Source of the DNA: Legionella jordanis
GTDB lineage: Bacteria; Pseudomonadota; Gammaproteobacteria; Legionellales; Legionellaceae
Length of the DNA: 64,000 nucleotides
Assembly: GCF_900637635.1 (NCBI RefSeq)
Contig: NZ_LR134383.1
Coordinates: forward strand, 640,501-704,500
Direction of reading: 5' to 3'
Both the position numbers and the translations under genes were made by a program. The notes under the pieces were generated by a model. The model had not been told where the DNA came from and did no database searches. It was given only the letters and a program-made list of their open reading frames with translations. Positions 2,410-37,318 of this stretch are shown here, piece after piece; position 1 is the stretch's first letter, and every line of letters begins with the position of its first letter.

Positions 2410-5400
2410 ATGGCTCAAAATCCGCAACTCGCGCAGGCATTAGGCAATCCTCCAAATCCTCAAGATCCTGCCTACATCAAGGCCTTAAATGACATGTTGG
2501 CGATTGATACCCGCAATTTGGCCGGTAGCGTTCAGCATCAAGTCGATTTTAGAAAAGCTGTTTTGGACAATCGCGCCTATTGGCAAGCAAATGGAGTTAA
2601 TATTCGTGCAGATCAGCGAGACGACGACAATAATTTCCTAGGATGGAATGCTGGTGCCAATCAGGATTTTAATTCCCTGCGTAAAAAAGCCGCTGAACTA
2701 CGGGTTTTGCTCGGGTTGAGTAATGCAAGCGAACAAGTCCTTAAAGACATCATTGATGCCGCTGCGAGTTCAAGTGCCATGCGCACTGTCATTGCCGGCC
2801 AGACAGGGGCTAATTCAGCGTTTGGTGAATTTTCACAATTTCCTGGCTGGGCCAATGACAATGAGGATGTGTTAACCAACGCCAGCATGAATCGCATCAA
2901 AGAAGCAGCCCAGAAAGAGTTGTTGCTTAAACGCATTGAGGCCACCACTGATCCGGCTAAATTAAGTGCCCTATTGAACTCGGTCGGCAATGATGCGAAT
3001 TTCAGGGCTGCGGTAAAAAACCTGTTTGATCCGCCCATAGCGGGTGCTGATGCGGGCATTGACGCCATGAGCAGTGCCCGTCTCAATGATGTGGCTCGTG
3101 CAGCGACTAAAAAAGCTTATGCCCTCGCAATTGCTGCAAAATCAGATGAAGACATTATCGCTGCCAATCTTAATGCTACCTTAAATGAGCAACGTGCCCC
3201 GAACTTTAACCACAACTTGGCGCGTTTCATTCCAGGTATCCCAGGTCCTGGGCTTAATGATGAAGGAATAGCAGCCATCAAAGGAATTTTAGGCGCTCGC
3301 TATCTCAAAGCGGAATTGGAGCGAAGTGCTGATGTTGCTTTGCTGGAGGGCATGGCCGCCGCGCAAGACAGTGGTACAGCAAGAGGGTTCATTCGGGCAG
3401 ATGTTCGAATTGGTGGCGCTTATGTTGATCAAGCGCTCACTGATGCCAATTTGGCTAATATTAAGCTCGCTGCAGCGTCACAAGCGCTAAAACTGAAACT
3501 AGGCTCAGTAACGGATTTAGACGCCCTTGATGCACTCAGTAGAGTCAGCAACCATAATGAATTGCAACAAGTGTTAGCCACGCAGAACAGCTTGGGCTAC
3601 GCAGCCAACCAACCCTTTCGCACGGCCTTTACTGGCCAAACGGCTTTAAAAGGCATAACTGCAATTGCATCCATACGTAAACACTTGATTGCTGCCCAGA
3701 ATGCTACGCAATTAAAAGAATTCGTTCTCGCCGACGCAAATGCGAACAACGGCATTGATTTCATTGGCAAATACAATCAGTTGATTGCACCAAACACAGC
3801 CACTGCTGAAGAACAGCAATATTTAAAAACCAATGCCGCAGCACTGCAGCAATTAGCCCTTGATACCTTGGCTAAAAATGAACTGGGCAAACCAGGAGTT
3901 GTTTCAGATGCCAATCTGGTGCTTATGGCAGCCCCGGGGACAGCCCAAAACCTCCAGGATGCCACCGGTGCTTTACTGGGTGTTCCTGGGGCTTCTCCCA
4001 GTGTGCAGGCTTTAATCACCGGAACAGGCACTGGCATTGCTAACCGGCTAAAAGCACTCGCTTCTCTGGAAGCGGTTTTACGCTCAACAAAAGACATAGA
4101 TTTGGCTGGGCCTAATTTTAATGGCTATGTTGGCAAAATTAATGATTTAACCCAAATTGCTGCACCTTCAGGGATTAATGGCGCCAATGCTCTCCCAAAC
4201 TCAAACGGGGTGAATGTCGCAGGGGTTCTAGCCCAGTTAACCACTGCCGAAACACAAGCCTTCCAGGTTAACCTGGTTGAAAATCTGGTTCGAAATTATC
4301 CTGGTGATCAGCCTTTACAAAATTTAAAAGCCTTGGCTGAGGCAAAAGATTTGACCACCTTCAAGGACAAATTAACCGCCATCGGCATCACCTCACAAGA
4401 TTGGGTGAATGCCGATGTTATGAAGAAGATTCAGGCCGCTGCCTGCACCAAAGTCATTCAAAAGGGGCTTGGTAACGCATCCACTTTTGAGGATCGCCCA
4501 GCCCTAATGGCAGTCATTGCGCAACTGCCCGCGGATAAGCAACAAACTTTAATGGCAAAACCGGCCATTCTAAGAAGCTTAATGGCTGCGCTTAGCCCTG
4601 AGGCCATACAGCAAGTTTTAGGTAATAATCAGGTTTCCGCTTCTTCCATGGCGGCCTTAGAGGACGAAAACAACCAATTAGCCCTCGCCTCTGGAATAGC
4701 AAACCCCAAGCTGGCTGAGGTCATCGGCAGTCTCACCTTCCCTACTTCCCGCCCGAAAATCACCCTTGACAGCGATAAAGTGGCCAGGATTAACCAATAC
4801 ATTTTAACTACGGCGACGGCTGACTTCACCGGTAATGCTGGAAATTATGAACCCACTGTTAAAGCTATAGCCCAAATTGCAGGCTTGCCTGAGGATGCCC
4901 TTTATGGAACTTTAGGATTTAACCCAGTTGGGTCAAATGTAGCTGGCCAGCCGCAAGGTTCACTGCATCAGCAGAAACAGCATAACCAGCAACTGGAGAT
5001 ACAATACGGCGCTTCGCAATCGGCTGGCGAAAAAGCTATTCTTGAATTTTTAATGTCTTTAAACAAAAAGGCCGTGTTTCCAAATGCTGACATTGCTGCA
5101 GCCGTTAAAGCGTTTAAAGAAGCCGCCAATCCGGATGAGTTCATCACCAAGCTTAAGGCTATTCCTGGCCTAATCACAGGCCAAGCGGGTGAAATATTTA
5201 GTGAGCAGCAACTAAAAAATCAAGTCAATTCAGGCGTTTACAGCCATGCGAAAGCAGCCGTTCTGAAAACTACATTCCTCGATACCAGGCCTCAAGGTGT
5301 CTATGCTGAAATGATGGATTTAACCAAACAGCAGGGCCTCGATCGCAAGGCATATGAAGATTTGCATCGCCAGATCGTGGATAAAGACAAAGCCATACAC

Positions 5401-35462: not shown

Positions 35463-35903
35463 TTAAAATTTCTCAGTAGCAGAAAGCAAGCTTTTCAATT
35501 CTATTGGATTGTCCAGAATATCCGCCAAGCTGTATTGTTTTAAAATGGCGATGAAGTTTTCCTTTGCATCAAAAAGGATGCGCTTTAATTTGCATGCAGG
35601 CGCAATACAGCAATTTGCTTTTTCTTTGTTGAAACAAGGCACCAAATCAAAATGTGGCTCAAGCTTAATTATCAATTCCCCAAGGTTAAGATCCGCTGGG
35701 TTTTTTGCCATGACGATGCCACCACTTTTACCACGAAGCGTTCTGATTATGCCCATTTTTGCTAAGTTATGAATAATTTTTACCAGATGATTCGATGAAA
35801 TACCGTAGGCCTTGGCAATGTCATTAATGGTACATAGCTCTTTTTTAAGAGCAATGTATATCAAGGCTCTGAGAGAATAATCGGTAAATTGGGTTAACTG
35901 CAT
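35463..35903 (-). CDS. nsrR: NsrR, Rrf2-family nitric-oxide-sensing repressor
   Basis: The 146-residue winged-helix Rrf2 protein has HTH residues ~25-62 (TINDIAKAYGISSNHLVKII) and Cys90, Cys98/99 and Cys104 in CFNKEKANCCIAPACK. These match the three iron-sulfur cysteines of NsrR, which loses DNA binding when its cluster reacts with NO. It is divergent from the truncated-haemoglobin gene, whose promoter carries an NsrR-type palindrome. GGAG precedes the ATG. IscR is unlikely from the Cys spacing and the target site. Confidence 0.9.
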   Translation of the reverse strand: MQLTQFTDYSLRALIYIALKKELCTINDIAKAYGISSNHLVKIIHNLAKMGIIRTLRGKSGGIVMAKNPADLNLGELIIKLEPHFDLVPCFNKEKANCCIAPACKLKRILFDAKENFIAILKQYSLADILDNPIELKSLLSATEKF

Positions 35904-35927
35904 GCATCATCTCCGCAAATTCATGTC

Positions 35928-35956
35928 TTGACGCTTATTATTTCTTTTTATAACAT
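35928..35956 (+). promoter_or_regulatory. Promoter of the haemoglobin-reductase unit
   Basis: TTGACG (35928-35933), a 17-bp spacer and TAACAT (35951-35956). The -10 overlaps the NsrR palindrome, so bound NsrR would block RNA polymerase. Confidence 0.6.
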
Positions 35957-35974
35957 GTATTTCAAATACATCTT
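35952..35974 (+). promoter_or_regulatory. NsrR operator
   Basis: AACATGTATTT, one base, AAATACATCTT form an 11-1-11 palindrome with nearly every position of the enterobacterial NsrR consensus (AAgATGcATTT-n-AAATgCATcTT). It sits 12 bp before the globin start codon and 48 bp from the nsrR start, so it may also autoregulate nsrR. Confidence 0.85.
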
Positions 35975-35986
35975 TCGGAGTATACC

Positions 35987-36355
35987 ATGCCTAAAACATT
36001 ATTTGAGCGTTTGGGTGGGGCTGATGCTGTAAACACGGCTGTAGATATTTTTTATCGCAAAATGTTGACCGACGATAGGGTTCGTCATTTTTTTGACGAT
36101 GTGGATATGGAACAGCAAATTGTCAAACAAAAAGGGTTTTTAACCATGGTGTTTGGTGGCGCAAATAATTACCAAGGTAAAGACATGCGGGAAGGTCATC
36201 GTCATTTACTGAAGCGCGGCTTAAACGATAACCATGTGGATGTGGTGATTGGACATTTGAGGGAAACGTTAGTTGAATTGGGCGCTTGCGAAGAAGACAT
36301 TCAGGAAGTGGCCAACATAGCAAACAGCGTGCGTGATGACGTACTGGGAAGGTGA
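35987..36355 (+). CDS. glbN: Group I truncated haemoglobin
   Basis: The 122-residue 2-on-2 globin begins TLFERLGGADAV. It has the B9-B10 Phe-Tyr pair (FY, residues 22-23), the GANNYQGKDMREGH segment and proximal His71 (GHRHL). Group I members such as mycobacterial HbN oxidise NO to nitrate when oxygenated. Under an NsrR operator and next to a reductase, NO dioxygenase activity is the likely job. TCGGAG precedes the ATG by about 8 bp. The symbol is used for the family only. Confidence 0.9.
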   Translation: MPKTLFERLGGADAVNTAVDIFYRKMLTDDRVRHFFDDVDMEQQIVKQKGFLTMVFGGANNYQGKDMREGHRHLLKRGLNDNHVDVVIGHLRETLVELGACEEDIQEVANIANSVRDDVLGR

Positions 36356-36358
36356 AAT

Positions 36359-37318
36359 TTGGCAGAACTCAATTTTAATCATCAAAACCTGCAAGCTTTG
36401 GAGGGTGAGTCTGTGCTGGATTGTCTCTTGCGCCATGGGATTGATTATCCTCATTCTTGTTGCGCAGGTATTTGTCAGGCTTGCTTGATGAAAGCCACAG
36501 AAGGCGTTGTCGAAGCAAAATGGCAGGATGGCTTACCTGATACCTTAAAAGCCCAGGGCTATTTTCTTGCATGCCAGGCAAAGCCAGAGGCTAATATTAT
36601 GCTGAAGTCTCCCGATGCCTCAGAGTGTGACCAACAAGCCCTAATCAATGACATTAAGCGCCTGACGCATAATGTCATTAGGGTAAAACTTTTAACAGGG
36701 AACCTAGAGGTTTGGATCCCCGGGCAGTACCTCAATCTTATGAACTCCAAAGGCATCTTGAGGAGCTACTCCATAGCAAACCTCCCTGCAAAAGAAGGCT
36801 TTATTGAGTTGCACATAAAGCTGAAAGAAAATGGGGAAATGAGCCGATGGTTGGGGGAAGAGGCCGCTGTAGATACCATGGTTCATATTCGTGGGCCTTT
36901 TGGCAAGTGTTACTACCTTAACCCAGCTCAGGCGTCTTTTGATATGCTGTTGGTTGGAACTGGCACCGGATTAGCCCCTTTATTGGCCATTGCTAAATCG
37001 GCTTTAAGTGAGCAACATAATGGAACCATTCACTTAATACACGGCGGCTGTGTGGATGAGGATATTTATTACTCTGAAGAATTGCAGATGTTGGCATCAA
37101 TTTATGAGAATTTTAAATACTCTCCCTGTGTATTAAAAACCAGGGGAAATTATCCCGAAGCCAATATTTTCGATAAAACCGGCCTCAATCTGACTGCAGC
37201 AAATAAAGACATAAGGGTATATGTTTGTGGACCGAAGGACACTACGAATAAAATAAAAACACAAGTGTTTCTTGCAGGTGTTCCATCAGCAAGGATTTAT
37301 AGCGATGCATTTCTTTAA
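36359..37318 (+). CDS. Ferredoxin-domain NAD(P)H flavoreductase
   Basis: Electron-transfer protein of the phenol/benzoate-oxygenase reductase type, 319 residues. A plant-type [2Fe-2S] domain (1-90) has Cys34-x4-Cys39-x2-Cys42-x29-Cys72. Then comes an FAD domain with RSYSIAN and an NAD domain with GTGTGLAPLLAI and a C-terminal VCGPKD. The start is TTG at 36359, 3 bp after the globin stop, with GGAAGG upstream. The tight link to the globin suggests that it re-reduces the haem. No oxygenase component is nearby, which argues against a hydroxylase role. Confidence 0.9.
   Translation: MAELNFNHQNLQALEGESVLDCLLRHGIDYPHSCCAGICQACLMKATEGVVEAKWQDGLPDTLKAQGYFLACQAKPEANIMLKSPDASECDQQALINDIKRLTHNVIRVKLLTGNLEVWIPGQYLNLMNSKGILRSYSIANLPAKEGFIELHIKLKENGEMSRWLGEEAAVDTMVHIRGPFGKCYYLNPAQASFDMLLVGTGTGLAPLLAIAKSALSEQHNGTIHLIHGGCVDEDIYYSEELQMLASIYENFKYSPCVLKTRGNYPEANIFDKTGLNLTAANKDIRVYVCGPKDTTNKIKTQVFLAGVPSARIYSDAFL

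Follow-up and report, generated by a model that had tools for sequence, protein, structure and literature searches.

Does a truncated haemoglobin gene followed by a flavoreductase gene encode a nitric oxide (NO) dioxygenase made of two proteins, and how far does such a pairing extend? The question was raised by a locus of Legionella jordanis, in a 64,000-nucleotide stretch of DNA (hereafter the window; positions 640501–704500 of contig NZ_LR134383.1, a single-contig genome of 3,133,723 bases). There, a gene for an NsrR-type repressor of the Rrf2 family is divergent from the genes for a group I truncated haemoglobin and a [2Fe-2S]/FAD/NAD(P) reductase. On the evidence below, the three genes probably encode an NO-inducible two-protein NO dioxygenase, of a type already described in outline, and a globin–reductase pair of this kind was found in 30 sampled families of the Gammaproteobacteria.

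Gene order and gene products

The gene trio was present as originally predicted, the reading frames, their positions and their Pfam domains all agreeing. The repressor gene (35463–35903, minus strand, 146 aa) and the globin gene (35987–36355, plus strand, 122 aa) are separated by 83 bp from start codon to start codon. The reductase gene (36359–37318, plus strand, 319 aa) is co-directional with the globin gene, and its TTG start lies 3 bp past the globin stop codon. The window globin had one match in its own genome. Globin and reductase are separate ORFs here, unlike flavohaemoglobin Hmp, in which the globin is fused N-terminally to the FAD and NAD domains.

The reductase contained Fer2, FAD_binding_6 and NAD_binding_1 domains (Pfam), with cluster ligands C34, C39, C42 and C72 in the pattern CX4CX2CX29C, the domains and cysteine spacing of a BenC-class [2Fe-2S] ferredoxin-NAD reductase. 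RSYS (135–138) was found as the FAD motif, and GTGTGLAP (200–207) and CGP (290–292) as the nucleotide motifs. The four cysteines and R135, Y137, S138, G204, L205, P207 and G291 were present in all 58 aligned reductases; L061 and L085 (cut at contig ends) and L098 (a partial reductase match) were excluded from the alignment and distance tests (L and G numbers denote loci and genomes). BenC/MmoC-type reductases, which by their model names serve ring-hydroxylating or methane oxygenases, have the same [2Fe-2S]-FAD-NAD order, but the window reductase scored far below the cut-offs of their models.

The globin contained a Bac_globin domain (Pfam, 1.7e-15), and its best phmmer matches to solved sequences were cyanoglobins. 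The closest solved fold to its AlphaFold2 model (pLDDT 88.5) was Chlamydomonas THB1 (6cii, TM 0.88, 41% identity). Alignment with cyanoglobin placed Tyr23 at B10, Gln44 at E7, Lys47 at E10, Gln48 at E11 and His71 at F8. The predicted group I assignment was thus borne out by the Bac_globin domain, the THB1-like 2/2 fold, the proximal His F8 and the distal network of Tyr B10 with Gln E7/E11, a network found in all ten globins of the genus and in 51 of 51 reductase-paired globins of the class (see below). Because Lys E10 of THB1 is a distal heme ligand that diatomic ligands can displace (PMC11904497), ligation of the heme by the distal Lys is a fair prediction for the window globin.

Repressor and operator

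The repressor contained an Rrf2 domain (Pfam, 9.9e-33), and NsrR was its best NCBIfam model (134.5 bits). Its best solved relative was Streptomyces NsrR (5n07), whose Asp8, Cys93, Cys99 and Cys105, the cluster ligands of that protein, aligned with D8, C90, C98 and C104 of the window repressor. These four residues of an Rrf2 fold are therefore candidate [4Fe-4S] ligands. D8, C90 and C98 were kept in all 27 aligned NsrR-like proteins (10 from the genus and 17 from class loci); the match of C104 comes only from the pairwise alignment with 5n07 and the genus alignment.

A perfect palindrome, ATGTATTTCAAATACAT, which the original prediction did not mention, was found in the 83-bp divergent gap. It is part of a 19-mer, CATGTATTTCAAATACATC (35954–35972), that ends 14 bp before the globin ATG and agrees with the NsrR motif gATGyAT-N5-ATrCATc (Rodionov et al. 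2005, PMC1274295) at 13 of its 14 fixed positions. This operator-like site overlaps by one base with the end of the −10 element of a likely globin promoter (35928–35954, plus strand), which consists of TTGAC (35928–35932), a 16-bp spacer and TATAAC (35949–35954); TTGAC-N16-TATAA was present in all ten genus loci. A GGAG read from the sequence (35977–35980, plus strand) is a likely globin ribosome-binding site. The palindrome stood at the same place in all ten genus loci with 13–16 of its 16 positions kept, and in one of them (L005) a symmetric pair of positions was altered together. A shuffle control allowing up to three mismatches was too loose to inform (1 found, 0.81 expected), and the site was accepted because of its conservation in the ten loci. 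Both the best-scoring model and the conserved palindrome thus agreed with the NsrR-type control that had been predicted.

Four sites with at most one mismatch to the NsrR motif, this operator included, were found in the genome. The other three (94249, 2180621 and 2562366) were not taken as targets, all lying inside predicted ORFs, the last less than 80 bp from the first codon of its ORF. There were 44 further sites at two mismatches, of which 36 fell within ORFs of 100 aa or more and eight did not; the reversed pattern gave six sites in all. At six of the eight (L148, L164, L166, L167, L168 and L185, all outside the window) an ORF of 60 aa or more starts within 250 bp, and these may be further NsrR targets or chance matches. 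A gene for the NO reductase qNorB lies away from the locus (C1:1233870–1236140); no site upstream of it in the stretch read fitted more than 11 of 14 positions, and we do not count this gene among the NsrR targets.

Distribution in Legionella

Ten of the 22 genus genomes contained globin, close reductase and close NsrR alike; the remaining 12 had no globin match and only remote matches to the reductase and Rrf2 proteins. Such an all-or-none pattern indicated that the trio is not a chance arrangement, and the gene order, which the original prediction had proposed to look for in other Legionella, was kept within and outside the genus. The search alignments were built from the window locus plus eight further genus loci; the ninth, L006, was omitted as near-identical to L008. 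Reductase fragments retained in a genome lacking the locus (G009), and extra reductase or repressor remnants in two others (G001 and G003), suggest that the locus was lost. Broken or remnant copies of nsrR or of the reductase gene were also seen at L045, L049, L139, L140 and L141 in some Legionella.

No protein of the 22 genomes passed the cut-off for full-length Hmp, the matches starting at or beyond model position 155, in the reductase part. The predicted division of Hmp functions between two proteins is consistent with this result. Two ORFs of 643–663 aa located off the globin locus (G003:C1:1908262-1909275 and G001:C29:36611-37618) had a Fer2-like part after their FAD/NAD domains.

When named genomes were scanned with the reductase, 41 loci were obtained, of which 33 had Legionella in their titles. 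Globin and reductase were both present in 38, of which 35 also had a full-length NsrR-like match; the other three had a partial nsrR only (L045) or no nsrR in the stretch read (L052 and L053). Of the three loci lacking a globin, two were cut at a contig end (L048 and L054) and the third, L055, matched only weakly and in part. Records titled otherwise also contained pairs, among them L047, L050 (with an NsrR-like gene lying downstream), L052 (Armatimonadetes; globin 2633–3001, reductase 2998–3966) and L053 (Alteromonadales). Because several of these loci are near-identical (L032/L051 and L041/L042), the counts overstate the number of independent cases.

Distribution in the Gammaproteobacteria

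Of 369 genomes of the class, 76 yielded globin matches with E values no higher than 1e-10 (103 matches). We read 68 of these globin loci, leaving out the window's own, second domains, second copies and most weak matches. A reductase gene lay directly downstream of the globin gene in 51 of the 68, representing 51 genomes and 30 families; L060 is the one such locus from the family to which L. jordanis belongs. An NsrR-like box, defined as at least 12 of 14 motif positions within 300 bp upstream, was present at 33 of the 51 paired loci (22 families) and at one of the 17 unpaired loci, as against none of 51 with the reversed pattern, none of 51 in coding stretches and 0.3 expected from dinucleotide shuffles. 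With a threshold of at least 11 positions, the counts were 40 of 51 and 2 of 17, the reversed pattern giving 2 of 51 and the shuffles 2.9.

The linkage was also seen from the side of the reductase. Sixty close reductases were found in 54 of the 369 genomes, 50 of them encoded directly behind a close globin and one (L135) beside a divergent globin. Two more were natural reductase–globin fusions in a single frame with a C-terminal globin domain: L129:868-2475 (minus strand, 536 aa) and L130:1863-3734 (minus strand, 624 aa), both measured stop to stop. Their globin domains were recognised as Bac_globin by Pfam (3e-8 and 3.9e-9, respectively), and a short cysteine-containing tail followed. Globin and reductase distances were correlated over 48 loci (Spearman 0.65), the maximum in 1000 permutations being 0.29.

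Other arrangements were noted. Small roadblock-like proteins, judged by eye, are encoded near the two fusions. Tandem two-domain truncated globins of ~275–290 aa in one ORF, with no reductase nearby, were seen at L068, L072, L083 and L128, and a truncated globin domain after a ZapG-like N-terminal part at L113:1311-2453 (plus strand).

Enlarged loci in other Legionella

An alternative oxidase (AOX) gene adjoined the locus in 18 of the 41 named loci (e.g. L019, L027, L034 and L036; Pfam AOX 3e-82 for L034). All 18 had an NsrR-like box of 12–14 of 14 positions upstream, mostly 50–60 bp away, these boxes being scored without a separate control. A gene for a TehB-like methyltransferase was near in 17 of the 18, and a DUF488-like gene or part of one in eight. 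A qNorB gene stood beside the reductase gene in 13 named loci and, in part, in one more. It was co-directional and right behind the reductase gene in seven (L028, L030, L036, L037, L041, L042 and L046) and convergent with it in L023, L025, L027, L032, L033 and L051, with a 12/14 NsrR-like box ~290 bp upstream in L032, L033 and L051. Some of these AOX and qNorB loci are near-identical to one another. Among the 22 genus genomes, AOX was found in five, all of which have the trio, and it was absent from the genome of the window.

Taking the two distributions together, we lean somewhat towards a joint interpretation. One branch of the group I truncated haemoglobins, bearing a distal Lys, would have a dedicated, co-inherited and sometimes fused [2Fe-2S] flavoreductase, often under an NsrR box, forming a two-component NO dioxygenase that is widespread in the gammaproteobacterial families sampled and sporadic beyond them; the reductase would supply the missing native electron donor. 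In some Legionella the locus would have grown into an NO island with an NsrR-boxed AOX and a linked qNorB.

Proposed function and alternatives

Judging by what is known of these protein families, the L. jordanis trio would work as follows. NsrR with an intact [4Fe-4S] cluster would occupy the palindrome that overlaps the −10 element, repressing the globin and reductase genes (glbN-fdr), perhaps nsrR too. NO would damage the cluster and release NsrR, and globin and reductase would then be made together. The ferrous, O2-bound globin would oxidise NO to nitrate, becoming ferric; the FAD of the reductase would accept hydride from NAD(P)H, and the [2Fe-2S] domain of the same enzyme would relay single electrons to the ferric heme.

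Several observations weigh against this function or against its spread through the class. An adjacent reductase was lacking at 17 of the 68 class globin loci, two of which (L122 and L124, from two small genomes of one family) have an NsrR-like gene divergent from the globin and no reductase downstream. At the paired loci, an NsrR-like gene was found in the stretch read at 17 of 51 and not at the other 34, and 18 of 51 had no box of at least 12 positions. Lys E10, found in 51 of 51 paired globins, was rejected as a mark of pairing because 14 of the 17 unpaired globins carry it too. The correlation of globin and reductase distances may reflect only the common descent of the genomes. That the operon is the sole NsrR target in its own genome is neither shown nor excluded by the sites found there.

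The alternative that survives best, though we consider it unlikely, is that the pair responds to NO but serves at low oxygen chiefly to reduce NO or nitrite, or has a peroxidase or peroxynitrite-scavenging role. Another truncated haemoglobin reportedly has peroxidase activity, and Lys E10 could close the heme in a six-coordinate state, such ligation possibly aiding electron transfer steps (PMC11904497); a role in NO reduction is, however, already provided for by the qNorB of the same genome.

It is distinctly improbable that the trio is a stress operon with a regulator that responds, like RirA or IscR, to iron or to cluster status instead of NO. The regulator belongs to the Rrf2 family and gave 110.8 bits with the RirA model, and its NsrR score did not reach the curated cut-off of 182 (it is therefore labelled "NsrR-type" here). 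NsrR was nevertheless the best-scoring model, the operator fits the NsrR motif, and homologues of the AOX, TehB-like and qNorB genes that neighbour the locus in other Legionella belong to NsrR regulons elsewhere (PMC1274295).

Least probable of all is that the reductase serves another partner, for example in general ferredoxin or flavin reduction, and is merely co-regulated with the globin: it has the domain order of BenC/MmoC-type electron-transfer proteins, and 7 of the 60 close reductases had no globin match in the stretch read, which also counts against a strict pairing, but the direct, divergent and fused linkages described above account for the others and the next two genes of the window encode PAPS-reductase-like and DUF922 proteins, not oxygenases.

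Relation to known systems

An NO-inducible NO dioxygenase of two proteins accordingly remains the best reading of the L. jordanis locus, favoured by gene order, residues and linkage; its novelty did not hold. The original prediction had called the system possibly undescribed, but the operon and its role were proposed for L. pneumophila in 2005 and again in 2012. In the earlier text, glbN-lpg2536, a cyanoglobin and ferredoxin-reductase operon, is given as the only NsrR target of L. pneumophila, with an Hmp-like oxidation of NO proposed (Rodionov et al. 2005, PMC1274295). The later one repeats the proposal (Gardner 2012, PMC3820574), and a 2014 comparison of Legionella genomes treats the globin lpp2601 as trHbN (PMC4256840). 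These 2005 and 2012 texts were the only ones on the globin–reductase pair met in the open-licence literature searched. The class-wide linkage, the bacterial fusions and the AOX arrangement in Legionella were not met in that literature, which does not imply their absence from print.

The window operon is probably a further member of the described type, and the function proposed for that type is probably right. It shares the gene content, NsrR control and proposed role of glbN-lpg2536 and differs in species. The reductase of L. norrlandica, a close relative of L. pneumophila, is 56% identical to that of the window in its best segment. The L. jordanis genome has a qNorB elsewhere. The original description of the module as self-contained applies to the operon; it does not extend to this qNorB or to the larger locus of some other Legionella.

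More distant systems share parts of the arrangement. M. tuberculosis HbN is not known to be under NsrR or to be encoded next to a reductase gene. Like the window globin it belongs to group I (30% identity to 1idr), and it has been linked to NO detoxification (PMC4256840). Hmp likewise combines heme, FAD and NAD functions under NsrR control, with NO dioxygenation as the proposed role (PMC1274295); the window trio, in contrast, uses two proteins, a 2/2 instead of a 3/3 globin and an extra [2Fe-2S] domain. THB1, the closest fold to the window globin and also with Lys E10, is an algal protein and an NO dioxygenase in vitro (PMC11904497, PMC4304232).

The electron source of truncated haemoglobins is mostly unsettled. 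Nitrate reductase may reduce THB1, and for the globins described here the conserved neighbour, the fusions and the shared operator make the question of the partner testable in one pair. The value of the locus lies in this question and in the breadth of the pairing, and not in a new system. Alternative oxidase resists NO, and its linkage to the locus hints at a jointly controlled respiratory bypass in some Legionella species; an alternative oxidase is also part of the NsrR regulon of Vibrio fischeri (PMC1274295). The breadth of the pairing extends a remark made in 2005 on a single species to what would be a class-wide alternative to flavohaemoglobin.
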